NCBI RefSeq assembly: GCF_007859765.1
Contig: NZ_SIHJ01000002.1
Span: 62,001-126,000, forward strand
DNA length: 64,000 bases
Direction of reading: 5' to 3'
Origin: Posidoniimonas corsicana
GTDB taxonomy: Bacteria > Planctomycetota > Planctomycetia > Pirellulales > Lacipirellulaceae
The notes under the pieces are model-generated. The model made no database searches and was not told where the DNA came from. It was given only the letters and a program-made list of their open reading frames with translations. Both the position numbers and the translations under genes were made by a program. Of the stretch, positions 1 through 17,561 are shown in pieces (the stretch's first letter is position 1; the number at the start of each line of letters is the position of its first letter).

Positions 1-34
1 ACACGCACAACAGCAGGGAGAGGAAAGACTTCAT
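1..34 (-). CDS. 5' end of a secreted protein, cut by the window edge
   Basis: An ATG on the minus strand at 34 opens a frame that runs off the window after 11 codons (MKSFLSLLLCV). A lysine followed by a leucine-rich stretch is what the start of a signal peptide looks like. Nothing more can be said about the product, and no clear ribosome binding site is visible upstream, so this is a tentative call. Confidence 0.4.
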   Translation of the reverse strand, partial: MKSFLSLLLCV

Positions 35-198
35 GGCGGACCAGCGGCGGCTGAGGGACAAGCGGCGGGCGGGGCGACCGTGGGCGGGGGCGGCCGGAAC
101 CGGTAGAATCGACTACCGAAGCCCCCTCTCCTGATTATGGCACGGCGGCCCGGCCTGTCGAACCACCGGTCGGGCTGCAACGGATACAACGGCTCTGC

Positions 199-1368
199 AT
201 GTCCCACGACTCGATTGCTGCCCTCCGCGACGCGTTCCGCCAGCTGATGCCGGTCACCGAACGGTACGCGTACCTGGACCACGCCGCGGTGGCCCCCCTG
301 CCCCGCCCCGCGGCCGAGGCGATCGGACGCTGGCTCACGCAGGCCACCCAGCAGGGCGATGTCGTGTGGCCCGACTGGGCGAAGCAGCTCGAAGCGACCC
401 GCGCGGCTGCGGCCAAGCTGATCTCCGCCAAGCCGGAGGAAGTGGCGCTGGTCCCCAGCACCACGCACGGCATCTCGCTGGTCGCCGAGGGGCTGGACTG
501 GCGGCAGGGCGACAACGTCGTGACGCTGGCCGACGAGTTCCCGTCGAACCTCTACCCGTGGATGCACCAGCAGGACCGCGGCGTCGAGGTGCGCACGGTC
601 GAGACCGACAACGGCCGCGTCGACCTGGACGCGCTGCGCAATGCTGTTGACGACCGCACCCGCGTGGTCTCAGTCAGCTGGGTCGGCTACAAGACCGGCT
701 ACCGGCAGCCGATCGACGACATCGCCGAGATCGCCCACGCGGCGGGCGCGTTGTTCTTTGTCGACGCGATCCAAGGGATGGGCGTTGCGCCGCTGGACGT
801 GAGCCGCACGCCGATCGACTTCCTGGCCGCCGACGGGCACAAGTGGATGCTGGGACCCGAGGGCGCCGGCGTGGCGTACTTCCGGCAGGACCGCCTGGAC
901 CTGTTGCGCCCGTTCGGCGTCGGCTGGAACAGCGTGACCGGTCGGCACGACTTCAACCACATTGAGCTGAAGCTCCGCGCCGAGGCGGCGCGGTTCGAGG
1001 GCGGGTCGGCCAACATGGTCGGCATGATCGGGCTGGGCGCCAGCCTGAAACTGCTGACCGACCGCCCGACCGAGGAGTTCCGGCAATCGATCCTCGCCAC
1101 GTCCGACTACGCGTGCGAACGGCTACAGGCTATCGGGGCGACCGTGGTGTCGCACCGCGCGGCGGCGCCCAACGGGCACGACCCACGAACCGGCATCGTC
1201 GCGTTCGAGCTGCCGGGCCGTGACCCGATGGAGGCCCGCCGCCGCTGCCTGGAGGAGCGCGTGGTGCTGAGCTGCCGCGGCGGCCGACTGCGGATCGCGA
1301 TCCACGCCTACAACAACCAGAGCGACATCGACCGGCTGATCGACGCGATCGCCCAGCCGTCAACCTGA
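199..1368 (+). CDS. PLP-dependent class V aminotransferase (cysteine desulfurase/selenocysteine lyase-like)
   Basis: A 389-residue protein of fold-type I PLP enzymes, class V. The N-terminal YLDHAAVAPLP segment is the usual substrate/PLP entry motif, and DGHKWMLGPEG carries the PLP-binding lysine at about residue 215. The family includes cysteine desulfurases, kynureninase-like enzymes and isopenicillin-N epimerase-like proteins; the sequence does not decide which reaction is run. It lacks an obvious catalytic-loop cysteine of the NifS/SufS type, so a desulfurase role is not assured. It is cytoplasmic (no signal peptide). It stands alone, followed by a short repeat and coaD on the same strand. 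No good Shine-Dalgarno is seen, which is common in this window. Confidence 0.85.
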   Translation: MSHDSIAALRDAFRQLMPVTERYAYLDHAAVAPLPRPAAEAIGRWLTQATQQGDVVWPDWAKQLEATRAAAAKLISAKPEEVALVPSTTHGISLVAEGLDWRQGDNVVTLADEFPSNLYPWMHQQDRGVEVRTVETDNGRVDLDALRNAVDDRTRVVSVSWVGYKTGYRQPIDDIAEIAHAAGALFFVDAIQGMGVAPLDVSRTPIDFLAADGHKWMLGPEGAGVAYFRQDRLDLLRPFGVGWNSVTGRHDFNHIELKLRAEAARFEGGSANMVGMIGLGASLKLLTDRPTEEFRQSILATSDYACERLQAIGATVVSHRAAAPNGHDPRTGIVAFELPGRDPMEARRRCLEERVVLSCRGGRLRIAIHAYNNQSDIDRLIDAIAQPST

Positions 1369-1396
1369 CCCTGCGAAGAAACTCAACCGGTACACA

Positions 1397-1422
1397 ATCC
1401 CCCGGCAGAGCCGGCGGCTACG
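1397..1422. repeat. single copy of a 26-bp CCCCCGGC palindromic repeat
   Basis: This spacer between the aminotransferase and coaD contains one copy of the 26-bp unit seen as inverted pairs at 36161-36243 and 45666-45747. It differs from the 36-kb consensus at one position and is followed by the same ctacg end. Here it is a singlet, as expected for a decayed or half REP/REPIN-like element. Confidence 0.6.
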
Positions 1423-1516
1423 AAACACGCGGGCTGCTTGCGACCACGAACCTCATCGGGCCCGCTACGCCAGTCAGATCACGAAGACTCTCTTCACCTC
1501 CCGCTCTACAACGACC

Positions 1517-2005
1517 ATGGCCAGCACTGCCGTCTACACCGGTTCCTTCGACCCGATCACGCTCGGGCACCTGAACGTCATCCAGCGGAGCAGCCGGCTG
1601 TTCGACGAGTTTATCGTCGGCATCGGGGTCAACCCGGACAAGACGGCGTTGTTCGACGCCGACGAGCGGGTCGAGCTCATCCGCCGCGTGTGCGACGGCC
1701 TGCCGAACGTCACGGTGAAGAGCTTCTCTGGCCTGGCGGTCCGCTTCGTGCGGGACTGCGGCGCCCGCACGATCGTCCGCGGCGTGCGTTCGCTGAGCGA
1801 CATGGAGGTCGAGTTCACCATGACGCTCGCCAACCGCAAGCTCGACCCCGACATCGAGACCGTCTTCCTGATGGCGGACGACGAGTTCTCGCACGTCAGC
1901 AGCTCGCTGATCAAGCAGATCACGCCCCTGGCGAGCGACGAGGAACTCGCCCGCTTCGTCCCGCAGCAGATCATCCCCGACCTGCGCGCCAAGCTGCAGG
2001 ACTAG
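1517..2005 (+). CDS. coaD: phosphopantetheine adenylyltransferase
   Basis: 162 residues, the normal length for CoaD, which joins 4'-phosphopantetheine and ATP to dephospho-CoA in the fourth step of coenzyme A synthesis. The nucleotidyltransferase signature TGSFDPITLGHL is at residues 8-19 with the catalytic His18, and HVSSSLIKQ near residue 128 is the second conserved phosphate-binding motif. IVRGVRSLSDMEVEF is also typical of the family. It is cytoplasmic. It converges with the protease gene on the other strand, with only 12 bases between the two stop codons. Confidence 0.96.
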   Translation: MASTAVYTGSFDPITLGHLNVIQRSSRLFDEFIVGIGVNPDKTALFDADERVELIRRVCDGLPNVTVKSFSGLAVRFVRDCGARTIVRGVRSLSDMEVEFTMTLANRKLDPDIETVFLMADDEFSHVSSSLIKQITPLASDEELARFVPQQIIPDLRAKLQD

Positions 2006-2017
2006 ATTCGCGGGCGG

Positions 2018-3172
2018 CTAGCTAACGATCCGCACGAGCTGCAGGAACAGGAACGTGGCGCCCATCACCGCCAGCACGTTCCGCGCGGCGTCAAACCAGG
2101 CGGGCGTCGCCAGGCCGGCGTCGGCGGAGCTGGCGGCGGCGATTGATGCGACGGCGGGCGCCGACTCTTCGTCCGAAGCGGACTTCCACTCGCGGAAGTT
2201 GTCGCCGGCTTCGCCGCCCGCACTGGCGGCGAACAGGTCCTTGGCGATCGGCCGCTCGGGCCACGGCATGCCGGGCTCGTCATCGGTGGACGCCGCTGCA
2301 TCGCGCTTCGTGGCGTCGGCGACCAAAGCAGCGTCGCTGTCGAGGTCGCGGGGTCCGTTCAGCTTCTGCCAGCCGCCGGACTCTTGCTGTTGTGCGTCGT
2401 CGGCAAGCTGAGCGCTCGCGGCCTTGGCCGGCAGGCGGCCTTCGCCGGGACGGGGCGGGGCGTGCGCAATCAAGGCGGGCGTGGAGGGGATGCCGGCCGG
2501 ACCGTGACCGGCCCGCGGGCGCCGGCCGATGTCGGGCGCCACGGAGGCGAGGAACGTCTCGACCCGGGGCGCGAAGCTGCCTAGCGTGGTTCCGTTGGCG
2601 GCGCCGAAAAGCACACCGGCCAGCTCGCCCCGCTCGTTGAAGATCGGCCCGCCGGAATCGCCCTGCCGCGCCTCGACGCTCAGCTCCACCAGCTCGCGTG
2701 GCATGCCGACCTCCGGCGCGTAGAACTCGGTGCACCGGCCGGTCGCCGCACGGTACTCGCCCTGGCCGTAGCCGCAGATCGTGAGCTGGTCGCCCGGGCG
2801 GGGCGGGTGCGCGGCAATCGCGACCGGCTGGGCCGGCGGGCGCCAGATGACCAGCGCGGCGAGGTCCCAGTCCTCATCGAGCTTGACGGCGCGGGCCTCG
2901 CTGCGGAACCCGTCGGGGAACACCACCTCGATCTTGCCGACCGCGTCCCGCACGACGTGCCAGTTGGTGATCACCAGCCCGTGCTGGTCGCGGCTGTCGA
3001 TCAGCGACCCGCTGCCGAACGCGGTGGCGCCGTTCTCCTGTACGATGATCCGCGCCACCGCCGGGTGCGGCGCCGCCCACGCGGCCGGCGCGCAGCACAT
3101 CAGCACCAGCGCGGCGGCGGTGCGGAGTCGGGCGGTCGTGGCGGGCGGTCGGGACACGGCGGTTCGGATCAT
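2018..3172 (-). CDS. secreted trypsin-like serine protease with C-terminal membrane anchor
   Basis: 384 residues. A signal peptide (about residues 1-33, ending AAWAA) leads into a chymotrypsin-fold domain with a visible triad: His72 in TNWHVV, Asp103 in DWDLA, Ser173 in QGDSGGP. Residues about 215-350 are low-complexity and rich in Ala/Pro/Asp. The last ~25 residues (NVLAVMGATFLFLQLVRIVS) form a transmembrane helix, so the protease domain should sit outside the cytoplasmic membrane, tethered at its C-terminus. There is no PDZ domain, unlike DegP/HtrA. The start codon overlaps the stop of the upstream 76-residue gene by 4 bases, so the two are translationally coupled. Substrate unknown. Confidence 0.85.
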   Translation of the reverse strand: MIRTAVSRPPATTARLRTAAALVLMCCAPAAWAAPHPAVARIIVQENGATAFGSGSLIDSRDQHGLVITNWHVVRDAVGKIEVVFPDGFRSEARAVKLDEDWDLAALVIWRPPAQPVAIAAHPPRPGDQLTICGYGQGEYRAATGRCTEFYAPEVGMPRELVELSVEARQGDSGGPIFNERGELAGVLFGAANGTTLGSFAPRVETFLASVAPDIGRRPRAGHGPAGIPSTPALIAHAPPRPGEGRLPAKAASAQLADDAQQQESGGWQKLNGPRDLDSDAALVADATKRDAAASTDDEPGMPWPERPIAKDLFAASAGGEAGDNFREWKSASDEESAPAVASIAAASSADAGLATPAWFDAARNVLAVMGATFLFLQLVRIVS

Positions 3173-3399
3173 TCGGCCCCGCTGCTGCGTAGCCCCCGCA
3201 CGGCGTCGAGCTGCCGCTGGCGGTGGTTCTCGAGGATGAAGTTCAGCAGCCGGGTGCGGGCGGCGAGGCGGCGGAGTTCCTCGCGGCTGTCGTCGACGGG
3301 CGCGTGCGCGGCGGGCTTGGGGGCGCGCACGGTCGGCGCCTCCGTGTGTTGCGCGGCGTAGTCCGCAGCCGACGGCTGCGGGACGGGAAGGCCTGACAT
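3169..3399 (-). CDS. small protein of unknown function coupled to the protease
   Basis: A 76-residue protein starting at an ATG at 3399 (MSGLPVPQPSAADYAAQ). The frame is open 15 codons further upstream, but this ATG is the better start. The N-terminal half is Pro/Ala-rich and probably disordered; the C-terminal half (SREELRRLAARTRLLNFILENHRQRQLDAVRGLR) is a likely amphipathic helix or coiled coil. No signal peptide is seen. It ends within the ATG of the protease gene and is probably in one transcript with it. I do not recognise the family. Confidence 0.6.
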   Translation of the reverse strand: MSGLPVPQPSAADYAAQHTEAPTVRAPKPAAHAPVDDSREELRRLAARTRLLNFILENHRQRQLDAVRGLRSSGAE

Positions 3400-3468
3400 A
3401 GGTTGCTCTCGTGGATCACCCCTGCCGTCGGATGCGCGGCGCATCGCTCGGCGCGGGGGCGACTCGCA

Positions 3469-3777
3469 TCATGCTGCGATAGGACGGCCGCCCTTGAGTT
3501 CCTCCGTGCGTCGCGGGAAGTCCTTGCCGGCGTTGTGGTCGTTCTTGAGTTGCTCGATCTCGCGGCGGAAGGCGCGCTCGGCCAGTTTGGTAAGCGTCAT
3601 CCGTGCGGGGAAACCCGCCAGCGAGACCACCGCGTCGCGGGCCTCGTCCAGCAGGTCGGCGGGGAGGTAGAGCGTGGCCCGGACCTTGGCCGGCTTCGTC
3701 TCCGGCTGGCAGTCCTCGGGCCGGTGCAGGCGCGGGGCGTCGGTGGTGTGGGGGCTCTCTCCCATAACGGCTGCCAT
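3469..3777 (-). CDS. ribbon-helix-helix-like DNA-binding protein
   Basis: 102 residues. After a ~30-residue flexible N-terminus comes KVRATLYLPADLLDEARDAV and then a second helix MTLTKLAERAFRREIEQLK: one beta strand followed by two helices, the layout of ribbon-helix-helix (Arc/CopG/ParG-type) DNA binders that act as dimers. The basic tail ends in GGRPIAA. It lies 69 bases upstream of the coupled small-protein/protease pair and may be their regulator, or it may act on the divergent kaiB promoter. No toxin partner is adjacent. The family call rests on pattern only. Confidence 0.6.
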   Translation of the reverse strand: MAAVMGESPHTTDAPRLHRPEDCQPETKPAKVRATLYLPADLLDEARDAVVSLAGFPARMTLTKLAERAFRREIEQLKNDHNAGKDFPRRTEELKGGRPIAA

Positions 3778-3940
3778 CGGCGCCGGGGCGGACGTTTCTG
3801 CAAACGTCTGACGTTGGGCCTCAGCGCCGCCGCAAAGGTCAGGGTCGCCGCAGCCGGAGCATCCGGCGAACTGGTCGTTCGGCGATCAGCGAGGGACGCC
3901 CGACGCGTCTAGCTGCGCGGCTGTCGCCAATTCGCGCGTT

Positions 3941-3970
3941 TAGCGATTGTGATTGCAAACCCGATCGCTA
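3941..3970. promoter_or_regulatory. inverted repeat in the RHH gene/kaiB divergent spacer
   Basis: TAGCGAT at 3941-3947 is repeated inverted as ATCGCTA at 3964-3970 with a 16-base spacer. It lies about 85 bases upstream of the kaiB start in the 278-bp spacer between divergent genes. The spacing puts the half-sites about two helical turns apart, as for a dimeric repressor, but no binding protein is known. Confidence 0.3.
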
Positions 3971-4055
3971 GGATTGGTTAGATCTTGCCGTGACTCTTCA
4001 CTAGGCGTCTCGCCCGGACGCCGGCGCCACTGGTCGAAGAACAACCAGCGAATCC

Positions 4056-4337
4056 ATGGAACAGTCCAGCTACGTTCTCAAGCTCTACGTCACCGACATC
4101 ACGCCCGCGATTCAGCGGGCCATCGAGACCCTGAGGTCGTTCTGCGACGACGAGTTGACCGGGTGCTACGACTTCCAGGTCATCGACATCCGAGAACACC
4201 CTCAGCTCGCCGAGAACGAGCGGATCCTGGCCGTGCCGACGCTGATCAAGGAGCTGCCGCCGCCGATCCGGCGCGTCATCGGCGACCTCTCCGACCGCGA
4301 CCGGGTGCTGTTCGGGCTCGACCTGCAGTCGGGCTGA
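4056..4337 (+). CDS. kaiB: KaiB-type circadian clock/thioredoxin-like protein
   Basis: 93 residues, the length of cyanobacterial KaiB. YVLKLYVTDITPAIQRAIETL, the NPQLAEE-like EHPQLAENERILAVPTL block and ELPPPIRRVIGDLSDRDRVLFGLDL match KaiB end to end. In cyanobacteria KaiB is a fold-switching thioredoxin-like protein that binds the phosphorylated KaiC hexamer. It sits 52 bases upstream of kaiC on the same strand, so the two are almost surely one operon. KaiA is not present in the window; known KaiBC systems outside cyanobacteria generally lack it. There is no sensor-kinase domain, so this is the free KaiB, not SasA. Confidence 0.93.
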   Translation: MEQSSYVLKLYVTDITPAIQRAIETLRSFCDDELTGCYDFQVIDIREHPQLAENERILAVPTLIKELPPPIRRVIGDLSDRDRVLFGLDLQSG

Positions 4338-4389
4338 AGCGACGCCCATCCCCAACTCTTTCCAACACGCACCCGACAACACCTACCGC

Positions 4390-5892
4390 ATGAGCAGCCC
4401 GCCCAACGACCCTGCCGGCCCGATCGCCGACTCCGAGCACAACGTCCCGCGGCTGCCGACCGGCATCCCCGGCGTCGACGCGCTGGCGTTTGGGGGCCTG
4501 CCGAAGGGCCGCGCGACGCTCATCTGCGGCACCTCGGCCAGCGGCAAGACGGTCTTCTCCGTGCAGTTCCTGGCCTGCGGGATCGCCGAGCACAAAGAGC
4601 CGGGCGTGTTCGTCGCGTTCGAGGAGACGCCCCAAGACATCCGCGAGAACATGGCCGGGTTCGACTGGCCAATCCCCGAGTGGGAAGAGCAAGGCGTCTG
4701 GAGGTTTGTTGACGCCGGCCTCCGGCCCGACGAAGAAGAGCACCTCGTCGCCGGCGACTTCAACCTGGAGGGGCTGCGCACCCGGATCAAGCACGCGGTC
4801 GAGAGCACCGGGGCGAAACGCGTGGCGCTCGACTCGCTCGCCGCTATCTTCACCCGGTTCCCCGACGCGGGCGTCGTGCGCCGTGAGCTCGCCCGGATGA
4901 CCGCCGGGCTCAAGGAGCTGGGCGTGACCGCGGTGCTGACCACCGAGCTGCTCAACAGCGAGGAGGACACCACGCGGTTTGAGGTCGAGGAGTACGTGGC
5001 GGACGCGGTCGTCATGCTGCGGAATCACCCGTCGGTCGCCCGCCGCCGCCGCACGCTAGAGGTGCTCAAGCTCCGCGGCGGCCGGCACAAGACCGGCGAG
5101 CACGCGTTCTCGATCACCGGCGAGGGGATCCACGCGATCCCGGTCGGCTCGCTCGCGCTCACGCAGCCATCGACCGACCGCCGCGTCAGCTCCGGGTCGA
5201 AGCAGCTCGACGAGATGTGCTCCGGCGGCTTCTTCCAGGACTCGGTGACCATCGTCTCGGGCGCGACCGGCACCGGCAAGACGCTCACCGCTATGCAGTT
5301 CCTCAAGGGCGCCGCGGAGAGCGGCGAGCGGGCGTTGTTCCTGGGGTTCGAGGAGAGCCGCCCGCAGCTGGTCCGCAACGCCAAGAGCTGGGGCATCGAC
5401 CTCGAGAAGATGGAGGACGATGGGCTGCTGCAGATCCACTGCCAGCTGCCCGAGTCGGTCAGCCTGGAGATCCACCAGATCACCATCAAGCAGATGCTGG
5501 ACGAGTTCCGGCCGCAGCGGCTGGTGGTGGACAGCATCACGGCGATGAAGCGGGTCGCTGACGAGGGGTACTACCGCGACTTCGTGCTCGGCCTGACCTC
5601 GTCGATCAAGCAGCGGCAGGTCGCCGGCCTGTACACGTCGACCACCGACGAGCTCTCCGGCGTGTCGACCGTCACCGAGCAGAACATCTCGACCCTGACC
5701 GACGCGATCATCTTGCTCCGCTACGTCGAGGAGCCCGACGGCGTAGCCCGCGGCATCACGGTTCTGAAGATGCGCGGCTCGGGCCACGAGAAGTCCGTGC
5801 GTCGGTTCGAGATCAGCAGCCGCGGGATGCAGATCATGGAGCCGTTCGATCACCTGAGCGGGATCCTCGGCGGCAGGCGCGCGCAGGCCTAG
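4390..5892 (+). CDS. kaiC: KaiC-type double-domain ATPase/autokinase
   Basis: 500 residues with two RecA-like domains. CI: Walker A GTSASGKT at 47-54 and catalytic Glu78-Glu79 (FEETPQD). CII: Walker A GATGTGKT at 291-298 and Glu321-Glu322 (FEESRPQ). The autophosphorylation segment is kept: QNISTLTDAIILL has Ser434-Thr435 where Synechococcus KaiC has Ser431-Thr432. The C-terminal tail is short (GILGGRRAQA) and lacks the long A-loop/tail used to bind KaiA, in keeping with no KaiA. It probably forms a hexamer with ATPase and kinase activity that sets a daily or hourglass timer or a stress response; the output is unknown here. Cotranscribed with kaiB. Confidence 0.93.
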   Translation: MSSPPNDPAGPIADSEHNVPRLPTGIPGVDALAFGGLPKGRATLICGTSASGKTVFSVQFLACGIAEHKEPGVFVAFEETPQDIRENMAGFDWPIPEWEEQGVWRFVDAGLRPDEEEHLVAGDFNLEGLRTRIKHAVESTGAKRVALDSLAAIFTRFPDAGVVRRELARMTAGLKELGVTAVLTTELLNSEEDTTRFEVEEYVADAVVMLRNHPSVARRRRTLEVLKLRGGRHKTGEHAFSITGEGIHAIPVGSLALTQPSTDRRVSSGSKQLDEMCSGGFFQDSVTIVSGATGTGKTLTAMQFLKGAAESGERALFLGFEESRPQLVRNAKSWGIDLEKMEDDGLLQIHCQLPESVSLEIHQITIKQMLDEFRPQRLVVDSITAMKRVADEGYYRDFVLGLTSSIKQRQVAGLYTSTTDELSGVSTVTEQNISTLTDAIILLRYVEEPDGVARGITVLKMRGSGHEKSVRRFEISSRGMQIMEPFDHLSGILGGRRAQA

Positions 5893-5955
5893 CGGTTTTG
5901 CGCGTCTCGGCATTAAGGGCGCTTCCGTTTGGTCGGTTTTCGGTCGCCGGAAACT

Positions 5956-6058
5956 GTTACTTGGCGAGAAAGCGTTACTTGCCAAGAAACCCTTTGACCA
6001 ACACGTTTCGCTACGGCTAACGTGTTACTTGAGCCGCCTAACTTTCAACCAGGCGGCT
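5956..6058 (+). promoter_or_regulatory. triple GTTACTTG repeat and hairpin upstream of the PEP-CTERM gene
   Basis: The octamer GTTACTTG occurs at 5956-5963, 5974-5981 and 6024-6031. Just after the third copy, AGCCGCCT at 6032-6039 pairs with AGGCGGCT at 6051-6058 across an 11-base loop. All lie in the 220-bp spacer between kaiC and the PEP-CTERM gene that starts at 6113. The hairpin could end the kaiBC transcript or be a leader element; the octamers could be binding sites. No run of U follows the hairpin. Confidence 0.35.
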
Positions 6059-6112
6059 TGCTCTTCGACGAATCTCTCCAGTCCCTTTTCTACGTTCAGA
6101 GGAAGCCTAGTG

Positions 6113-6790
6113 ATGAGACACCTTGTGACTCGTTCTGTCGCCGTGCTGCTGGCGGCGGGCGCCGCCATCACCGCTCAGGCGGCTCACCTCGACAACCCCA
6201 ACCTGCTCGGCGACCCGAGCTTCGAAGACCCGGCGTCGCTGACCGCGGACGGGCCCCCGTTCGTCGGATCGTACGAGACGTTCTCCCTCGACGGCGACCA
6301 GGCCACCGGCGGCGACACCGTGCTGCACGACACCACCATGCCGCGCACCGGATCGGGCGCCGTGGAGATCGCGATCGGCAGCGTCGAGAACAGCTTCGCC
6401 GGCCTGTTCCAGGACGCGTCCTTCCCGTCGAGCCTGGCGGGCACCCAGGCGTGGTTCAGCGGCTGGCACAAGCTGCAGGGCAACACCGGCGGCACCGAGG
6501 CCCGGATCGAGTGGCGTGACTCGGTGAACGACGTCGAGATCTCGCGCACGCCGAACCTCACGACCTCGCCCGCCGGGAGCGACTACGAGGAGTTCATCGT
6601 CTCGGACACGATCCCTGCCGGCGCCGACACCGCTCGGCTCGTCTACGCCATCCAGAGCTTCGGCGGCGTGCAAGACCAGACGATCTTCCTCGACGACGTG
6701 AACTTCAACATCTCCGGCTACGTCCCGGAGCCGAGCGCCGCCATGCTGGCCCTGCTAGGCCTGGCCCCGCTCACCCGCCGTCGCCGCTAA
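6113..6790 (+). CDS. PEP-CTERM sorted secreted protein
   Basis: 225 residues from the ATG at 6113, which has AGGAAG about 9 bases upstream; an in-frame GTG/ATG further up would put non-signal sequence first. The signal peptide runs to about residue 24 (AITAQAA). The middle is a beta-rich domain (GDPSFEDPASL... FLDDVNFNISG) of the carbohydrate-binding, jelly-roll type often seen in planctomycete PEP-CTERM proteins. The C-terminus is the sorting tag VPEPSAAMLALLGLAPLTRRRR: PEP motif, hydrophobic helix, Arg cluster, recognised by an exosortase that is not in this window. Likely surface or extracellular-matrix located. Confidence 0.88.
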   Translation: MRHLVTRSVAVLLAAGAAITAQAAHLDNPNLLGDPSFEDPASLTADGPPFVGSYETFSLDGDQATGGDTVLHDTTMPRTGSGAVEIAIGSVENSFAGLFQDASFPSSLAGTQAWFSGWHKLQGNTGGTEARIEWRDSVNDVEISRTPNLTTSPAGSDYEEFIVSDTIPAGADTARLVYAIQSFGGVQDQTIFLDDVNFNISGYVPEPSAAMLALLGLAPLTRRRR

Positions 6791-6817
6791 CAGGCAGCGA
6801 ACACTACCGCATCGACC

Positions 6818-6859
6818 GCGAGCCGCGTTGGGCCAAGCCCGACGCGGCTCGCTTCTTTT
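6818..6859 (+). terminator. Rho-independent terminator after the PEP-CTERM gene
   Basis: GCGAGCCGCG at 6818-6827 pairs perfectly with CGCGGCTCGC at 6843-6852, with further pairing in the loop, followed by TTCTTTT. It lies 28 bases past the PEP-CTERM stop codon. Confidence 0.85.
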
Positions 6860-7077
6860 CCGGCAGGCTGCCGCTCACACCTGCGGACGTTATGTCCGCG
6901 TCGACTCGGCACGATGGCGGCGGAAACGCCTTTCACTCCAGCGCCGAGCACTGCCAACGCCACGCGTTGTACTTACGCAGAGCGGGACGAGCGGAAACAG
7001 CTTCAAGCGTTCTCAATCACCACTGCCGGAACTGCGCTGTTGCTTGTTCCGGCCTACACTCACGGTGCGGGCCCGGG

Positions 7078-7491
7078 CTACTCCGCGTCCTCCGGCCCAA
7101 CCCACATCAGCGGGTTGTGCGCCACCTCCCACAGGTGGCCGTCGGGGTCGGCGAAGTAGCCGCTGTAGCCGCCCCAGAACACCTTCTGGGGTTCCTTGAC
7201 GAGCGTCGCGCCGGCGGCGACCGCCTGGTCGACTACGGCGTGGACCTCTTGCTCCGACTTCACGTTGTGCGCCAGGGCGAAGCCCTTGAAGCCGCTCCCC
7301 TCGGCCGAGACCGTGGCGTCCTCGGCCAGCGCCTCGCGGCCGTACAGGCCGAGCCACGTGCCGCCCAGCGTGAAGAACGCCACCTCCGGCGGCGACTCGA
7401 GCTTGGGGAAGCCGAGGCCCTGCTGGTAGAACGCCACCGACCGGGCCAGGTCGCTCACGCCGAGGGTGATCATGCTGATGCGGGGCTGCAC
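7078..7491 (-). CDS. VOC-superfamily (glyoxalase/bleomycin-resistance-like) protein
   Basis: 137 residues from a GTG start, with two beta-alpha-beta-beta-beta modules of the vicinal oxygen chelate fold. PRISMITLGVSDLARSVAFYQQGLGFP is the N-terminal half and GGYSGYFADPDGHLWEVAHNP the typical C-terminal half with the metal-ligand-type Glu (WEVA). Members include glyoxalase I, fosfomycin-resistance enzymes and many proteins of unknown substrate, so no reaction is assigned. Cytoplasmic. It follows the large secreted-protein gene on the same strand with a 37-base gap and may be read from it. Confidence 0.82.
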   Translation of the reverse strand: MQPRISMITLGVSDLARSVAFYQQGLGFPKLESPPEVAFFTLGGTWLGLYGREALAEDATVSAEGSGFKGFALAHNVKSEQEVHAVVDQAVAAGATLVKEPQKVFWGGYSGYFADPDGHLWEVAHNPLMWVGPEDAE

Positions 7492-7528
7492 GCTGGCGAC
7501 CTGCGGGTGTGGAGTGTCGGGGAAGCGG

Positions 7529-10303
7529 CTAGTCGATCTTCTTGATCGAGAGGTTGCGGAATGTTAGCACAGATCCGCCCCAGTTGTACTTGCCGCCGAA
7601 CCCGACCTGGAGCGGGCGGGCGGGCGTCCAGCCCGGCAGCGCTTTACTTTCTACCACGTGCTGGTCGCCGATCCAGACGTCCACCACTCCGCGGTCGAGG
7701 CGCACACGGAACGGCGCCACTTTGTCGGACCACTCCAGCGGCGTCTTGTGCTCGGTGTGCTCCCCGTAGGGCCCCGCGGCGATCCAATCCTCCGAGGGGT
7801 TGAGCATCACGCTGAAGGCCGGCTTCTCCGCCTGGCAGATGAACACCCCGGCGTCCCAGAGGTTGTAGGGGCTCTCGCCGTACTCCCACTCGCCGCTCAG
7901 CTCCCAGGCCGGGCCGAAGTCGGCATGGCAGACCGCGATCACGCCGTCGGTTGAAGAGACGCCCCGCAGCGCCCGGTTGTCCTCTTCACTTGTCCAGAAG
8001 CCCGCCGCCGTTTGCCAACCGGCTAGCGTCGGGTCGGCCTGCAGGGCCACCGCCTGCCCCTCGTCGAACGCCCGCAGCCAGTTGAGCGTTTGCAGCTTCG
8101 ACCGCAGGCGGAACCGCACGTGCGGGCCGATGTCTTGTTGCTCGGCGAGCTCCTCAAGCCGCTGGATCGCGGTGGCGCGGTTGTCCGGGTCGTCGTCCGA
8201 GAGGACTTCCATCAGCTCCGCCGCCTGCGGGGAGGTCCGCACCCGCACCTCCGACACCACCTCGCTGACCGTCACGGGGAAACGGGCGAACGCGTTGAAC
8301 TCGGGCTCACCGTTGAGCTCGTCGAGCCGGCGTTCGGCGTCCTCCCAGTGCTCGGTGCAGTAGGCGAGCGCCAGGTGCACCGACCGCCACCAGTTGGCGT
8401 TGGAGTCTTCGGCGATGTAGCGGTCGCAGACCTCGGCCGCCTCGTCATAGACCCCCTGCCGCTTGAGGATGTCCAGGCCGAGCGTGTTCTGGCTGTCGCG
8501 AGCGACTTTCCAGAGCGCCTCGCACAGCATGTACGGGACGTCGGTGTCGTAGCGTTCGGTCTGCTTGCACCGCAGCCCGAACTGGTACATCTGGCCGAAG
8601 CTCCCTCCCCAGCGGGGCGTCAAGCCGTACAAGTAGGCGTGGTACGCCGGGTTGTGGTCGATCTGCGCCTCGACCGCGCGGTCGAACCACAACCGCATCT
8701 CACTGGGCGGCGACACGTTGTCCGCCATCGTGAGTCCGATCATCTCGGTCGCCGGCTCGGGGCGGTCCGGCGCCGCGATCCAGGCGTCCTCGTAGCAGTC
8801 CCGGGCGGCGGCCATCTCCTTTGCGAACACCTTCCAGCCCTCCTCGGATACCGAAGACGCCCAGCCGGTGCCGCGGGCTTTCCAGGCCCGACGCGAGTGG
8901 TGCGCGCCGCCGATCATGTTGACGATGAACGGCTGCTGCTCCACGTGCGCACGGGCGGCCTCGTAGAACTGGGCTTCCTCGTCTAGGGTGCAGCCCTTGG
9001 CGACCTCCAGGATCGAATCCAACAGTTGCCGCCCCTGCTGGTTGGACAGGTCGTCTTGAAGGATCATCTGCAGGGCCTCCCGCTTGACCGCCTCGGCGAA
9101 CTCGGCCGCGTCCGCGGAATTGGCCATCTGCTGATTCAGCGTGCGGTGGGCGCGATTGGCCGCCGCGTACCTCCGGTTCGCGGGGTAGCCCCGTTCAACC
9201 AGGCCGGCGTAGCTCTGCACCACCAGCTCCTCCGCCTGGGCCTTTGCTTCGTCGTCACTGCCCGCGTCCTGGAGCATCGCGCCCACGCAGTACTGGACCA
9301 TCGGGTCGTCGCAGCCCAGCGCCAGCACCGCCTGGCCCATCTCCGCCAGCTCGGCCTGCATCTTGAAGCCCTCGTCGCCGCCGAAGTGCCGGGCGACCTC
9401 GGAGAGGAACTGCGTGGCTTGCTCGTCCCAGGCGTCGTTGTGCGAGCCGTGCTCCGCGTAGGCGTCGACCAACGTGCGGCGGTTGAACGCCAGCTTGCTG
9501 GCGGCGAAGTCGCGCACGGTCGTGGCCCCAGGCTTCAAGGGGATCGGGCCGGTCAGGTCGGGGCGTTTCGCGCCGGGGGGCCCGAACGACTCAACCAGCT
9601 CCAGGCCGTCCGCCTCGGGCAGCTTGAACGCGTCCTCGGCAAGGTCGGCGTCAAACCGCCAGTTGTCGAAGATCGCCACGGGCATCGGCATCTCCGCAGA
9701 GTCGTCGTCATCGGGCTGCAGCTTCCACTCGAACCTCCGCACGAGGGGCTGGTCGCCCTGCTGCACCCACACAACGACCCGCGAGTCGCCCCGGCCCAGT
9801 TGAAGCCGGTCGCACAACACGCGCCCATCGCGCTGCGGCTCGAGCGTCGACAGCTCGATTCCGGCGCCGGCGACGCCCAGCGGGTCGGCGCCCGCCAGGC
9901 GGACCGCCACGCTAGCGCCCGCCAGCACGCGGGCCGCGGCGGTCCTGAGCAGCGAGTCGAAGTCACCGCCGGCCTCTTCCTGAACCTGCTGGCCGAACAC
10001 CGGCATCGTGGCGACCAGCTTTTTGCCATCGCAGATGAACTGCGCGCCGGAATCGCCCTGCGAGGTGACCGACAGCCGGTTGGGTCGGGCGAGGACCACG
10101 CGGCGTTCTTCGAGCTCGGCCTCCGGCTGGACCATCCCGTATTGCACGTCGACGGAGAAACTCTTGGCGGCGGTGTAGAAATCGGTCACACGCTGCGCAA
10201 GCTGTTGCGCCTCGTCAGCGGCGAACACCGCCGGGCCTCGCGACAGCAGCAAGAGCGCCACCAGCACCGCGGCCGCGGTGCGGCGGGTTTGAAGGATCGC
10301 CAT
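7529..10303 (-). CDS. large secreted protein: DUF2092/LolA-like, DUF4034-like, and beta-sandwich end domain
   Basis: 924 residues from the ATG at 10303, where a signal peptide begins (AAAVLVALLLLSRGPAVFAADE). Residues about 27-230 (VTDFYTAAKSFSVDVQYGM...) look like a DUF2092/LolA-type lipoprotein-carrier fold. Residues about 330-760 are helical, with CYEDAWIAAPDRPEPATEMIGLTM and YHAYLYGLTPRWGGS resembling DUF4034/TPR-like regions. The last ~170 residues (GFWTSEEDNRALRG... WGGSVLTFRNLSIKK) resemble the DUF1080/LamG-like sandwich. Such architectures are planctomycete-specific and of unknown role; the domain assignments are by eye. Probably periplasmic. The 301-bp spacer upstream holds only the hairpins at 10504-10548. 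Confidence 0.75.
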   Translation of the reverse strand: MAILQTRRTAAAVLVALLLLSRGPAVFAADEAQQLAQRVTDFYTAAKSFSVDVQYGMVQPEAELEERRVVLARPNRLSVTSQGDSGAQFICDGKKLVATMPVFGQQVQEEAGGDFDSLLRTAAARVLAGASVAVRLAGADPLGVAGAGIELSTLEPQRDGRVLCDRLQLGRGDSRVVVWVQQGDQPLVRRFEWKLQPDDDDSAEMPMPVAIFDNWRFDADLAEDAFKLPEADGLELVESFGPPGAKRPDLTGPIPLKPGATTVRDFAASKLAFNRRTLVDAYAEHGSHNDAWDEQATQFLSEVARHFGGDEGFKMQAELAEMGQAVLALGCDDPMVQYCVGAMLQDAGSDDEAKAQAEELVVQSYAGLVERGYPANRRYAAANRAHRTLNQQMANSADAAEFAEAVKREALQMILQDDLSNQQGRQLLDSILEVAKGCTLDEEAQFYEAARAHVEQQPFIVNMIGGAHHSRRAWKARGTGWASSVSEEGWKVFAKEMAAARDCYEDAWIAAPDRPEPATEMIGLTMADNVSPPSEMRLWFDRAVEAQIDHNPAYHAYLYGLTPRWGGSFGQMYQFGLRCKQTERYDTDVPYMLCEALWKVARDSQNTLGLDILKRQGVYDEAAEVCDRYIAEDSNANWWRSVHLALAYCTEHWEDAERRLDELNGEPEFNAFARFPVTVSEVVSEVRVRTSPQAAELMEVLSDDDPDNRATAIQRLEELAEQQDIGPHVRFRLRSKLQTLNWLRAFDEGQAVALQADPTLAGWQTAAGFWTSEEDNRALRGVSSTDGVIAVCHADFGPAWELSGEWEYGESPYNLWDAGVFICQAEKPAFSVMLNPSEDWIAAGPYGEHTEHKTPLEWSDKVAPFRVRLDRGVVDVWIGDQHVVESKALPGWTPARPLQVGFGGKYNWGGSVLTFRNLSIKKID

Positions 10304-10503
10304 AGACGGTTCACTTTCAAGTGATGAAGAGGTTGAGCGAAAAGCAGCCGACCGGCGGCCTTCCGCATCCAGTCTATCACCACCCGATCGGCGGCACAAA
10401 GCACTTCGTCGCCGAACGCGCTGCTCCGCCTGCAGGGTCCGCCGGTCGAAGGACGGTTAAGGAGTACTGCCTACTAAACGGCTTGGCCCGGCTGTACGAA
10501 CTA

Positions 10504-10548
10504 CGCCGCGACTGCAGAACGCGGCGTCCACGGTGGAGGACCACCGTG
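10504..10548. other. two adjacent hairpins downstream of the HEAT-like gene
   Basis: CGCCGCG at 10504-10510 pairs with CGCGGCG at 10520-10526; CACGGTGG at 10529-10536 pairs with CCACCGTG at 10541-10548. They follow the stop of the minus-strand gene at 10605 and precede the large secreted-protein gene. There is no U run, so they may be repeat remnants or RNA-stabilising stems rather than an intrinsic terminator. Confidence 0.4.
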
Positions 10549-10604
10549 TGACAGAGGTCGGCCCGAACAAGCGGCTACACTGATTCGGCTTAGGCGTCTC
10601 AAGT

Positions 10605-11021
10605 CTATGTATCGAAACCAGTAACGTTCCAACCGAGAAAGTGCGAAACGTCGTCAGCCGCTGCAATGGCTTGTCCAGTCACGATTCTGTCTGATTCAGC
10701 AAGCGCGGATTCGATGACAGGAAGTACGCGTGTCTCGTCAAGCTTCCCGAACCGTCTGGCAAGGTGACCAAGACTGAGAACAGCATTTCCACGCACCTGC
10801 GGATGATGATGTCTAGCCAAGCCGAGACAGATATCCTGTGACCACTCTAGGTCAGGATCGGTCAGCGAAACGCGGATTGGGATTAGCGATAGCTCGTCTG
10901 GGTCGTCACGATCAATCGCTGCATAAACCTCTTCTTTGGACACGGGGGTAACGTTGCGATATTGCACTTGGAACTCTCTGGGCGGAGTAGTTGAGTCTCG
11001 AATACCCTTCGAGGCTCTCAC
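10605..11021 (-). CDS. HEAT-repeat-like small protein, unusual composition
   Basis: 138 residues from a GTG start at 11021. The core EWSQDICLGLARHHHPQVRGNAVLSLGHLARRFGKLDETRVLPVIESAL is a HEAT/armadillo-type helical pair, and the end (GQAIAAADDVSHFLGW) is conserved in a family of ~130-residue HEAT proteins that often occur singly or near immunity loci in other bacteria. No function is assigned. The gene is visibly poorer in GC than everything around it (many A/T third positions), which suggests recent acquisition. It is isolated between a repeat-bearing spacer and the divergent oxyR-like gene. Confidence 0.65.
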   Translation of the reverse strand: MRASKGIRDSTTPPREFQVQYRNVTPVSKEEVYAAIDRDDPDELSLIPIRVSLTDPDLEWSQDICLGLARHHHPQVRGNAVLSLGHLARRFGKLDETRVLPVIESALAESDRIVTGQAIAAADDVSHFLGWNVTGFDT

Positions 11022-11208
11022 GAACTAAGTATACGAGAGTCGCTGTCGGTCGCTCTGTCCTCACTCCTCCTCTGAGGCGTCACTCCCCACCGCCTGGCGA
11101 CGGTCGCTCCCCCGCCGCTCCTCAATGTCGCTAGTGCTCCCGCCGGTCCACTGCCATAATGCAGTTCTACACAGCACTTCACCTACGGCGGCACGAGCGG
11201 GCGACGCG

Positions 11209-12117
11209 ATGGACACGGATCAACTCAGGCAGTTTCTGCGTGTGGCCGAACGGGGGAACATCACCCACGCCAGCGAGGAGTTGGGCGTCTCGCAGCCGAC
11301 GCTAAGCCGCTCAATCCAGCGGCTCGAGGAGGAGTTCGGCCAGCCGCTGCTGGAGCGTCGCACGCGTTCGATTGCGCTGACCGACGCGGGCCGGCTGCTG
11401 GAGTCCCGCGCCAAGCAGGTGCTGCAAATCCTGGACGACGCCAAGACCCAGATCGCCGACGACGGGCAGAGCGGGCAGCTGCGGATTGCCTCGATCCCGA
11501 CCGTGGCGCCGTATTTCCTGCCAGACTTCCTGCGGTGCTTCCACAACGACTACCCCGATGCGATGCTGGTTGTGCAGGAAGACACCACCGACAAGCTGGT
11601 GCAGCGGTGCAAGGACGGCGAGATCGACTTGGCGGTGCTGGCGCTGCCGATCTCTGCCAAGTACCTCCAGACCGAGCCGCTCTTCAGCGAGCCGCTGCTG
11701 TTGGTCACCGCCACCGACCACCCGCTGGCCACGAAGGCCGAGGTGACGCTGGAGGATGTGGAGCCGTGTGCGTTCATCCTGCTCGACGAGGCCCACTGCC
11801 TGACGGAGAACGTGGTGTCGTTCTGCCGGCAGCGGTCGATCCAGCCGGTGGCCGTCGAGCGGACCAGCCAACTGACCACGGTTCAGGAGCTGGTGTCGTT
11901 GGGGCACGGCGTGTCGATGATCCCGGCCATGGCGCGGCGGCTCGACGAATCGCCCAACCGGGTCTACCGCACGCTGGCCGGCGAGGTCCCCAACCGCACC
12001 ATCGCGATGCTGTGGAACCCCTACCGGTTCGAGAGCAAGCTGCAGCGGGCGCTCAAGGAACGCCTGCGGTCGTATGCCGCAGAGTTCGAGGCCCGGCTGA
12101 CCGACGGCCTGCCTTGA
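11209..12117 (+). CDS. oxyR: LysR-family peroxide regulator of the OxyR type
   Basis: 302 residues from the ATG at 11209 ([19 protein letters not shown]). Residues 1-60 are the winged helix-turn-helix ([23 protein letters not shown]), followed by the linker helix and a two-lobe sensor domain. [14 protein letters not shown] places Cys197 and Cys206 nine residues apart, as for the peroxide-sensing C199/C208 pair of E. coli OxyR (CLRDQAMGFC). It should therefore form a disulfide on H2O2 and activate defence genes. The catalase and WrbA genes lie 3.4-6 kb away and are plausible targets. The Cys pair makes OxyR more likely than CynR/CysB-type regulators. Confidence 0.85.
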
Positions 12118-12265
12118 GCCGCCTCAGGTGGACCGAAGACTCCACTAGCAAAAGCATCGCCCCCCAGGCCCGGCTGGAAGTCCGTTGGCTGCCGTCCTGA
12201 GACGGGGCCGCCGGTTTCCTGCTGAGCCTGAGGGGCTGGATGCTGGTGGGGGCCTGACCGGGTCG

Positions 12266-12781
12266 TTATCGCAGTGCGGTAGTCTTACCCGCGGTCCCCC
12301 TCCGCAGCGTCGATACGCGACGGATTTCGGTTAGCAGCCCTAGCGCCTCGAACTCCGCAGCCACGTCTTCGGCCTCGGCAAGCGTGCCGTAGGTCTCGTG
12401 GTAGCGCCAGTCGGGCTCCTTCACGCCCTCGAAAATGGTCGTGGTGAACAGATTGTCGGGATCGACCCAGTCGTTCGTGGAGGGGTCGATGCCGTTCCAG
12501 TCCTGGCGGTCGCGGTACTTCAGCGCGTCCTCATAGCTGGCGAACGCGCCGCTGTACCAGTACTTGCCGTTCTCGTACGCGTACTCGACGTACCAGGCGA
12601 CGTCGGTTCCCGGCTTGGCAATGTACAACTCGTAGTCGTACATGCTGTCCATCGCGTCGGCCAGCGGGATCGAAACGGGGTCGCCGTACACCTCCTCCAG
12701 CGAGACCGAGCCGCTCTGCGCGAGGGCGGCAGTGGGGGACAGCAGGGCAACCAGGCCGGCGACGGCGATCAGGATCAACAT
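12266..12781 (-). CDS. secreted protein of unknown function
   Basis: 171 residues from the ATG at 12781; an in-frame GTG at 12820 would add 13 residues. A hydrophobic signal segment (LILIAVAGLVALLSPTAALAQ) is followed by a mature domain rich in Tyr/Trp/Asp (YDYELYIAKPGTDVAWYVEY, YWYSGAFASYEDALKYRDRQDW). The phrase FASYEDALKYRDR and a second similar unit (YHETYGTLAEAEDVAAEFEALG) suggest two related alpha/beta units of a SPOR-like small fold. I do not recognise a family. Likely periplasmic. Confidence 0.65.
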   Translation of the reverse strand: MLILIAVAGLVALLSPTAALAQSGSVSLEEVYGDPVSIPLADAMDSMYDYELYIAKPGTDVAWYVEYAYENGKYWYSGAFASYEDALKYRDRQDWNGIDPSTNDWVDPDNLFTTTIFEGVKEPDWRYHETYGTLAEAEDVAAEFEALGLLTEIRRVSTLRRGTAGKTTALR

Positions 12782-12863
12782 GGCGAAACTCACTTCGTGC
12801 GTGGGGGTGGGGGCGAGCACGCCCTGTGCTCTCGCCCGCTAGTACGCACCACGCCGCGGGCTG

Positions 12864-13604
12864 TTACGCGCCATCGGAAGATTCTTGGCCATCGCGGAGC
12901 GCTTCGAGCCGCTGGCGGAGCTCCTCGATGCAGCGGTTGACCTGCTGTTCGTCGTCCAGGCCGTCGAGGTCGAGATCGGCGGCCGCCAGGGGGCGTCCGA
13001 TGCGGACCTCGATCGGCGACCCCAGCCGCAGCCGCAGCGTGTGCGGCCGCAGCGCGTAGTAAGCGCCCTCCAGCCAGACCGGCGCCACCGGCACGCCGAG
13101 ACGCACCATCAGCAGCCCCACGCCGGGCTTCAGCTCCTGGAGCCGGCCGTCGATGGTGCGGGTGCCCTCGGGGAACCAGACTAGGTTTTCGTCGCGCTCG
13201 AGCACGGCCGCCGCGGCCGCCAACGCCGAGGCCTTACGCTCGATAGGCACCGTTTTTGCTAACCTATTAAAAAACCGCCGCACCGCGTGCCGCAGCACGG
13301 CGCCCCGCCGGCCGGCCCAGCGGGTCTTGTCGAGGGTGGCGTTGTCAAGGGCGGCGAACAGCGCCGCGCCGTCCAGCGAGCTGGTATGGTTGGGGGCGAT
13401 GACCAATGGCCCCTCGGCCGGCAGCCGGTCGAGGCCACGGACCGTGAACCGGAACAGCAGTCGCATCAGCCGGCGGTTGATCGCGATAAACAGCCGCCGC
13501 AACCGCGAACGCACCGGCCCCAGCGGGCGGAGCCAGCGGCGCTGCTCGTCGGTCAGGTGCTGCTCCGGCTGGTCGAAGTAGTCGCTTGCGGAGGCGCCCT
13601 GCAT
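12864..13604 (-). CDS. plsC: 1-acyl-sn-glycerol-3-phosphate acyltransferase family protein
   Basis: 246 residues of the PlsC/LPLAT family, which puts a second acyl chain on lysophosphatidic acid at the inner membrane. The catalytic HX4D is His73-Asp78 in NHTSSLD, and FPEGTRT at 144-150 is the glycerol-phosphate-binding motif; PVAPVWLEGAYY is block IV. A basic N-terminal helix (RSRLRRLFIAINRRLMRLLF) probably sits on the membrane. The gene is divergent from the metallophosphoesterase gene, with 46 bases between starts. Acceptor specificity cannot be read, so plsC is the family name only. Confidence 0.88.
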   Translation of the reverse strand: MQGASASDYFDQPEQHLTDEQRRWLRPLGPVRSRLRRLFIAINRRLMRLLFRFTVRGLDRLPAEGPLVIAPNHTSSLDGAALFAALDNATLDKTRWAGRRGAVLRHAVRRFFNRLAKTVPIERKASALAAAAAVLERDENLVWFPEGTRTIDGRLQELKPGVGLLMVRLGVPVAPVWLEGAYYALRPHTLRLRLGSPIEVRIGRPLAAADLDLDGLDDEQQVNRCIEELRQRLEALRDGQESSDGA

Positions 13605-13650
13605 CCCGTCCTCTCAAAAACCTGTGGTTCGACCTCAACCCCGAGGATCC

Positions 13651-14484
13651 ATGCTCACGCTAATGCAAATCTCGGACCTTCACTTCGGCCCGCACTACCT
13701 GCCGAAGGTGGGCGAGGCGACCCTCCGCGCCGCGCACGACCTGCGGCCCGGCGTGCTGGTGGTGAGCGGTGATTTTACCCAGCGCGCTAAGCCGGTGGAG
13801 TACCAGGCGGCCCGCCGGTTCCTGGACGACCTGCCGGCGGCGCCGCAGGTCGTCACGCCCGGCAACCACGACGTGCCGCTTTACCGGGTGTGGGAGCGGC
13901 TGACCGAGCCGTACAAGCACTACCGCCACTACATCAGCGAGGAGCTGGACAGCGTGCTGCGGGTGGAGGGCGCGTGTGTGGTGTCGCTCAACTCGGCGGC
14001 GCCCTACCACGCGATCACCAACGGCCGGATCCGCAACCACCAGCTCGACTACTGCGCCGAGCAGTTCCAGCGGGCCGGCGACGGCGAGCTACGCGTCGTG
14101 GTGGCGCACCACCACTTCGCCCCCGCGCCGGACTACGAGCAGACCGACGTGATGCCGCGGGCCAAGCGGGCGATGGACCGGTTCGAGTCGGTGGGCGTCG
14201 ACCTGATCATGGGCGGGCACCTGCACCGCGCGTACATCGGCAACTCGCTGGACATCTACCCCGGCTCGCGGCGCCAGCGGGGCGTCATTATCTGCCAGTC
14301 GGGCACCACCACGTCGCGGCGGGGCCGCGCCCGCGAGCGCGAGAAGAACTCGTTCAACCTGGTGGAGGTCAGCGACCGCTCGATTACGATTACGCACTGG
14401 ATGTACTTCTCGGACACCGACGGATTTGAGCCGATCAGCACGCACCGGTTCCCGCGGTGGCCAAACCGCAACCTCTCGGCGTAG
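13651..14484 (+). CDS. calcineurin-like metallophosphoesterase
   Basis: 277 residues, starting at the ATG at 13651 just before the first motif. All metal-binding blocks are present: ISDLHFG, VVSGDFTQ, TPGNHDVP, VVAHHHFAP and GGHLHRAYIG. The layout resembles the class III cyclic-nucleotide phosphodiesterase/YfcE/Icc-like branch. Substrate could be a cyclic nucleotide, a UDP-diacylglucosamine-like lipid or another phosphodiester; its neighbours (an acyltransferase and a lipid kinase) hint at phospholipid work, which is only inference. Cytoplasmic. Confidence 0.88.
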   Translation: MLTLMQISDLHFGPHYLPKVGEATLRAAHDLRPGVLVVSGDFTQRAKPVEYQAARRFLDDLPAAPQVVTPGNHDVPLYRVWERLTEPYKHYRHYISEELDSVLRVEGACVVSLNSAAPYHAITNGRIRNHQLDYCAEQFQRAGDGELRVVVAHHHFAPAPDYEQTDVMPRAKRAMDRFESVGVDLIMGGHLHRAYIGNSLDIYPGSRRQRGVIICQSGTTTSRRGRAREREKNSFNLVEVSDRSITITHWMYFSDTDGFEPISTHRFPRWPNRNLSA

Positions 14485-14502
14485 CTTACCGCGGAACCAC
14501 GC

Positions 14503-15405: not shown

Positions 15406-15506
15406 CGTGCGTGGCACTCGGGGGTCTCAGAAAGAAACGGCTCCCTGCATCAGGACAGGCGGCGCGCCGCCGGTCAAGCTTTCCGCTGTGCAAGCTACGG
15501 GACAGG

Positions 15507-17561
<2,055 letters not shown>

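Follow-up and report, generated by a model that had tools for sequence, protein, structure and literature searches.

What drives, and what reads out, a KaiB-KaiC pair that has neither a KaiA-like gene nor a kinase at its side? The question is posed by a 64,000-nucleotide stretch of the planctomycete Posidoniimonas corsicana (assembly GCF_007859765.1, contig NZ_SIHJ01000002.1, positions 62,001 to 126,000, forward strand; hereafter the window, whose own numbering is used below), in which kaiB (4056-4337, + strand) is followed by kaiC (4390-5892, + strand). KaiBC systems outside cyanobacteria, and clusters of kaiBC with a kinase, are already known. Indeed, kaiC-kaiB outside cyanobacteria is almost always found beside a kinase or a GGDEF/EAL gene (PMC3164672). 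The window pair is intact, shows purifying selection between its own species and a sister species, and lacks the histidine kinase that follows it in the latter. We consider it rather likely that this pair acts as a KaiA-independent phosphorylation timer, constrained between the two species and orphaned of its operon kinase. In the following, G000 denotes the window's own genome, G041 that of the sister species, other G-codes the genomes of relatives, and L-codes extracted loci.

An intact KaiB-KaiC pair

KaiB (93 residues) matched Pfam PF07689 at 85.4 bits (cut-off 27) and the NCBIfam equivalog NF006798 at 113.2 bits (cut-off 110), while scoring below cut-off with TIGR02654 (107.9 against 145.3). 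KaiC (500 residues) matched PF06745 at 357.6 bits in two stretches, that is, as a double domain, and the equivalog NF006799 at 608.7 bits (cut-off 408), with TIGR02655 again below cut-off (520 against 546.25). An earlier note on this DNA, made from the sequence alone, had described a full-length KaiB-KaiC pair in a planctomycete-like genome, and Pfam together with one NCBIfam equivalog for each protein bears this out.

Both P-loops of KaiC are kept, the first in CI at residues 47-54 (GTSASGKT, 4528-4551, with K53/T54) and the second in CII at residues 291-298 (GATGTGKT, 5260-5283, with K297/T298). Alignment with PDB 7dy1, which we take to be KaiC of T. elongatus, located the Glu pairs, presumably the catalytic ones, at E78-E79 in CI (4621-4626) and E321-E322 in CII (5350-5355). 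It also placed the phosphosite stretch T429 ... S434-T435 (5674-5694; all these features are on the + strand) opposite T426, S431 and T432, so that the phosphorylatable S-T pair of CII, the type seen in circadian KaiC, is S434/T435, with T429 besides. The Walker A motifs, Glu pairs and Ser434-Thr435 named in the earlier note are hence all present, and its numbering of the last was exact. At 82 columns that are invariant in 37 other sequences, KaiC showed 3 departures, each of which also occurs in the kinase-bearing G041. Against the PDB, full-length KaiC entries scored 472-545 bits, whereas 8db3, 8dba and 8fwi, named as Rhodobacter KaiC in PMC10076222, reached only 308-311. A degenerate RadA/RecA-like ATPase, the identity that would have undone the earlier description, is ruled out at the sequence level by the Pfam, NCBIfam and PDB matches and by the intact tested residues. 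In KaiB, alignment with the PDB chains 1r5p and 2qke pairs G87 with their G89, D89 with D91 and R56 with K58, so that an Arg stands in place of the Lys; a fold-switching role of the Gly and the Asp is described in PMC5520375.

The C-terminal tail of KaiC is missing. Only 3 residues extend past the reference point, compared with 19-40 in 19 KaiA-linked relatives, in line with the short tail reported earlier. This counts against a KaiA-driven KaiC and not against its identity as KaiC.

The operon kinase of the sister species is absent

G041 carries a KaiC 83% identical to that of the window at the same syntenic locus, which there reads kaiB-kaiC-histidine kinase. Its kinase has 606 residues and the architecture PAS-HisKA_3-HATPase-REC, and the predicted start overlaps the kaiC stop codon. 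The window departs from the sister species at this very place: the blastn match ends at 5877, and 5878-6109 holds no kinase and no detectable remnant of one (tblastn of the kinase against the window, best E 1.6). A search of G000 gave no orthologue of the G041 kinase (best of 19 matches, 29% identity and 52.5 bits, from residue 298 onward), and the PAS type of that kinase, which scores 144 bits in G041, had 0 matches in G000 at E <= 1e-6. Neither search gave a relocated kinase in G000. The earlier remark that the output of the pair is not evident now has a concrete reason, namely that the operon kinase of the sister species is absent here.

We compared the window with 36 related loci, comprising all other planctomycete loci found whose KaiC matched at about 1e-100 or lower. 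An adjacent KaiB is present in 31 of them, and every one of the 36 has a HATPase or REC gene within 3 kb, the HATPase being detected by a custom profile in 33 and by Pfam in G403 and G503, while the G566b locus runs off its contig. The window is thus the sole one of 37 loci without a two-component gene. The phosphosite could be read in 35 of the related KaiCs, as S-T in 28, S-S in 5, S-I in 1 and F-T in 1. Since these loci and the literature show signalling neighbours as a near rule, loss of the kinase in the window species appears likelier than its gain in the sister.

Among these neighbours, the kinase beside the nearest outside KaiC (L041:7733-8845, G398) matched neither HisKA nor HisKA_3 and, judged by eye, lacks a His at the usual position; it is possibly a pseudokinase.

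KaiA-like genes and the KaiC tail in related loci

To our knowledge, KaiA is mostly described as limited to cyanobacteria, with few exceptions. Proteins that share a C-terminal domain of about 100 residues are encoded in 21 of the 36 related loci, immediately upstream of kaiB or, in five loci that have no kaiB, of kaiC; examples are L042:8180-9028, L109:7724-8638, L045:3733-4638 and L090:7992-9080, with 17 further loci. The profile of this KaiA-like domain was seeded from nine loci and found the other twelve; two of the 15 loci without such a gene, G543 and G566b, end at or near kaiB and hence are not judgeable. The N-terminal part of the proteins is a receiver in G258, G156, G840, G483a and G058, a PAS domain in G549, G446 and G496, and HAMP-PAS in G237, where a Cache match stayed below cut-off (32.5 against 45).

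No Pfam model exceeded its cut-off on the common domain in the ten proteins scanned, RsbU_N appearing once at E 0.04. When profile A2 (15 kai-linked sequences) was compared with the PDB, KaiA ranked first at E 0.052 and made up 7 of 12 hits. Profile A5 (28 sequences, including 7 unlinked homologues) gave 13 hits, the top 8 of which were KaiA (7 by name and one 'circadian oscillation regulator', which we take to be KaiA), with a best E of 0.00067. Profile A3, whose C-terminal end was cut too short and to which a protein of the window's own genome had been added, gave no KaiA hit, whereas A2, A4 and A5 did. In addition, a profile search of 42 genomes (limited in some large genomes to the best 97 candidates) found strong KaiA-like matches, of at least 139 bits, only in genomes with a linked gene.

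The KaiA-like gene goes together with a motif in the KaiC tail, which was present in 19 of 19 tree leaves with the gene and 0 of 15 without it. The 34 leaves represent 32 planctomycete loci, the window and a Sphingobium plasmid; the motif was relaxed after the tails had been inspected, an earlier and stricter version having given 16 of 20 against 2 of 16 with truncated ends included. Gene and motif each change three times on the tree, and the Fisher value of 5e-10 overstates the independence of the cases. Tails as long as 28 residues that do not contain the motif occur in some KaiCs without a KaiA-like gene, and G543, left out of the test, has the motif on a contig that ends at kaiB. The window, G041 and G398 have neither a KaiA-like gene at the locus nor the tail motif. 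Because KaiA binds the KaiC tail in cyanobacteria (PMC4794148), this co-occurrence looks like the pattern that a working KaiA would leave.

Our literature search, restricted to open-access publications, found nothing on these planctomycete Kai loci, which is weak evidence of absence, and no description of sensor-fused KaiA-like proteins in the accessible parts of those publications. For one planctomycete assembly, Planctomycetaceae bacterium TMED241, a sentence in PMC8113500 mentions KaiA, and PMC11372060 reports KaiA3 from five non-cyanobacterial genera, among which there is no planctomycete.

Five loci of one clade (L090, L093, L094, L100 and L101) have an S-S type kaiC, the KaiA-like gene and a kinase and no adjoining kaiB, and their kinases do not carry the PAS type described below.

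A proposed timer without its operon kinase

Between the window species and G041, the ratio of nonsynonymous to synonymous differences (pN/pS) was 0.224 for kaiB and 0.233 for kaiC, while seven flanking genes ranged from 0.165 to 0.492, only coaD being lower than the pair. The pair is under purifying selection between the two species. Relative-rate counts of the two KaiCs were not significantly uneven with any of 8 outgroups (chi2 <= 2.33).

We propose that the pair reached its present form in two steps. The lineage of the window species, G041 and G398 would first have come to do without the KaiA-like gene at the locus and the accompanying KaiC tail motif, and loss of the operon histidine kinase, the presumed reader of KaiBC, would have followed in the window species. 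By analogy with studied KaiBC systems, KaiC hexamers would phosphorylate themselves at S434/T435 independently of KaiA, the pace would come from the slow ATPase of CI, and fold-switching KaiB would bind KaiC and bring about its dephosphorylation. The cycle would be reset by an external signal, for example the ATP:ADP ratio, and the system would thus be an hourglass rather than a self-sustained clock. The state of KaiC may then be read by an unlinked partner, by a second KaiC system, or by nothing.

Several points weigh against this proposal. Kinases beside kaiBC are often swapped, and that of G041 matches its counterparts in G398 (134 bits, 32% over 348 residues) and in G419 (136 bits, 30% over 451) about equally well, so that a gain in G041 is possible instead of a loss in the window species. 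There is also a small chance that a kinase lies elsewhere, the assembly being about 95% complete. The selection measured may mostly predate the loss. An unlinked KaiA-like protein, described below, is moreover encoded in the genome. Finally, in the maximum-likelihood (ML) tree the KaiC branch of the window species is longer than that of G041 (0.151 against 0.080), which hints at relaxation, although the counts show none.

The same branch, the absence of the operon kinase, and the lack in the genome of any partner with the PAS type of the G041 kinase would also suit a recent relic, that is, a pair left without output by the departure of the kinase, heading for decay and looking intact because little time has passed. 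We regard this as unlikely, considering that the tested motifs are intact, that no departure at the 82 invariant columns is specific to the window, that the rate counts are not significantly uneven, and that the pN/pS values are among the lowest at the locus.

Other Kai components in the genome

The assembly of the window genome spans 6.77 Mb in 13 contigs. KaiB is the only KaiB domain found genome-wide at E <= 0.001, and accordingly no cyanobacterial-type SasA, a kinase with a KaiB-like domain, was found. Pfam KaiA (PF07688) had no match genome-wide at the same threshold. The claim that no kaiA is near the pair holds for 1-16000 of the window, where no KaiA-like domain was found; it needs amending in that such domains are common in related loci and one unlinked copy, of uncertain relevance, is present in the genome.

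A second double-domain KaiC, of the S-Y type, is encoded in G000 at C2:555596-557176, and the gene after it specifies a PAS_3-HisKA-HATPase-REC hybrid kinase (L016:7597-11180, corresponding to G000 C2:555596-559180). The Ramlibacter paper (PMC3164672) describes a similar arrangement as its second kaiC context. Copies of this KaiC with at least 49% identity are present in 8 of 43 family genomes, including those of the window and the sister species. It is conceivable that the window pair now acts through this system: the S-Y KaiC and the kinase are adjacent, both reading frames are open, and S-Y type KaiC genes beside a dedicated kinase are described in PMC3164672. We nevertheless consider this quite unlikely, as the two KaiCs are only about 29% identical, G041 has the second KaiC while keeping its own operon kinase, and cross-talk is without evidence.

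A role in stress response without timing, as for the Legionella KaiC2 homologue, is reported for KaiC2 homologues outside cyanobacteria (PMC5520375). For the window pair such a role seems very unlikely, its KaiC being of the S-T type and placed outside the clade of Rhodobacter-like S-S KaiCs in a tree that contains no Legionella KaiC.

The unlinked KaiA-like protein has 334 residues and is encoded at G000 C1:3804761-3805765 (L178:1262-2266), next to a gene that we take to be infC. Profile A2 matched it at C1:3805376-3805675 with 44 bits. Towards the N terminus it resembles a degenerate receiver, and Pfam gave no match there. A profile of 7 such unlinked proteins (A4) aligned with profile A2 at E 2e-12 and, at E <= 10, hit 8 PDB sequences with a best E of 0.0021, of which 7 carry the name KaiA and one the name 'circadian oscillation regulator'. 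Matches to similar proteins also occur in G003, G007, G009, G042, G006, G209 and G399, relatives that have no close KaiC, and for this reason it is probably not the KaiA of the window pair. A dispersed KaiABC oscillator, in which this protein would complete the clock, is thus highly improbable despite the KaiA hits of its family profile and the match of its C-terminal part to PF07688 (19.7 bits, below the cut-off of 22.2), because the window KaiC is also without the tail, which is the binding site of KaiA in cyanobacteria and accompanies KaiA-like genes in relatives.

Distribution and origin of the pair

A close copy of KaiC is present in 2 of 43 family genomes, those of the window and G041, and four others carry a KaiC at 28-33% identity. 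At E <= 1e-105, KaiC matches were found in 28 of 397 genomes of the window's class (the window's own counted) and, for the class to which G398 belongs, in 3 of 298 (G398 counted), and at E <= 1e-60 in 21 of 392 genomes of a phylum sample. A contig search with a single protein query gave only 1 remote locus. In the KaiC ML tree, the window and G041 grouped at support 100 with G398, which comes from a different planctomycete class, and then at support 78 with the KaiC of the Sphingobium plasmid, while the order-mates G711 and G769 fell in a separate clade. Because of the patchy presence and the conflict of the tree with the order-mates, kaiBC was probably acquired horizontally. With its long branches and several low deep supports (34-61), the tree points to no particular donor.

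Comparison with known systems

The window pair resembles the kaiC-kaiB-histidine kinase cluster of Rhodobacter (Cereibacter) sphaeroides (L117) in having KaiB and KaiC without KaiA; there the system is an hourglass driven by the ATP:ADP ratio, with KaiC a constitutive kinase that KaiB helps keep dephosphorylated at night, and a KaiC without the C-terminal coil has similar phosphorylation and exchange rates (PMC10076222), a precedent for the KaiA-free cycle proposed here. The Rhodobacter KaiC differs in belonging to another clade, in its S-S phosphosite and in its coiled-coil C-terminal extension, and its cluster keeps an HWE kinase, whereas the window pair has neither extension nor kinase. The 'first context' clusters of PMC3164672 likewise share kaiC and kaiB with the window and differ in their histidine kinase or GGDEF/EAL neighbours, the window cluster being without a signalling gene. 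In Prochlorococcus, which has lost kaiA, KaiBC is likewise a KaiA-free pair thought to derive from loss and to be hourglass-like (PMC4794148); that system is cyanobacterial, and the window pair is without an operon kinase as well.

KaiA3-KaiB3-KaiC3 of Synechocystis and a few other bacteria (PMC11372060) shows the gene order of several planctomycete loci, with a KaiA-like protein (receiver plus KaiA-type C-terminal domain), kaiB and kaiC. The main text of that paper names no planctomycete, certain planctomycete proteins carry PAS or HAMP-PAS where KaiA3 has its receiver, and the window lineage has no KaiA-like gene at the locus.

We tentatively suggest that Planctomycetota may run three-part Kai clocks, made up of a KaiA-like protein with a sensor (receiver, PAS or membrane-type HAMP-PAS), KaiB, and a KaiC with a KaiA-binding tail helix, and read out by kinases that often share one PAS type. 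The window lineage would then represent a stepwise dismantling, in which the KaiA-like gene and the tail went first and the kinase next, leaving a bare KaiBC core under selection. The most novel element is the sensor-fused KaiA-like proteins, which, if they are what they seem, would offer a direct input path to the clock. Moreover, the drive and the readout of non-cyanobacterial KaiBC timers become testable with natural variants, since sister species differ by one operon kinase and the KaiA-like gene and tail motif come and go jointly across the group.

A PAS type shared by kinases beside kaiBC

One PAS type (L040:8570-8923; alignment A1) is common to kinases of different families and to a GGDEF protein beside kaiBC, and also adjoins KaiB-like genes without KaiC in G399, G281 and G382. 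Among the 36 related loci it scored at least 90 bits in 20, every one with kaiB (5 of the 20 are profile seeds). Seven of 8 matches of at least 112 bits in 16 chosen genomes were Kai-adjacent, a circular result as all seven are alignment rows, and the next best match had 51 bits. In a plasmid collection, both records that matched the PAS type carry KaiC nearby. Across 392 genomes of the phylum, the PAS type was found at 25 places in 19 genomes. Eleven of these places scored at least 106 bits, 5 of them alignment rows; the other 6 comprised 4 with adjacent KaiB or KaiC, 1 with a weak KaiB-like frame (21 bits) and 1 with none. Only 1 of the 14 weaker places was Kai-adjacent. The idea of a Kai-exclusive marker is thereby weakened, and the PAS type is better described as Kai-associated than as Kai-specific.

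Flanking genes and other features

Family scans and synteny comparison showed the left flank of the pair in the same order in G041, with a class V aminotransferase gene (199-1368) and the cytidylyltransferase-like gene called coaD (1517-2005), both on the + strand, and a gene for a trypsin-like protease (2018-3172, - strand). On the right, the syntenic flank includes a gene for a LysR-type regulator (11209-12117, + strand), assigned by sequence alone and not by a family search. A glyoxalase-family gene (7078-7491, - strand) lies downstream of kaiBC in the window and upstream of kaiB in G041, and marks a local rearrangement. Scans of 3700-7200 found no sigma-70-like promoter site; a single terminator-like site was seen (6818-6852), where 1.6 would be expected. 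Directly after kaiC, where G041 has the kinase, the protein encoded at 6110-6790 ends in what looks, by eye, like a PEP-type sorting motif (NCBIfam match below cut-off). On a plasmid of Rhizobium sp. 11515TR (L116:5875-8964), kaiC matches in two pieces about 1.1 kb apart.

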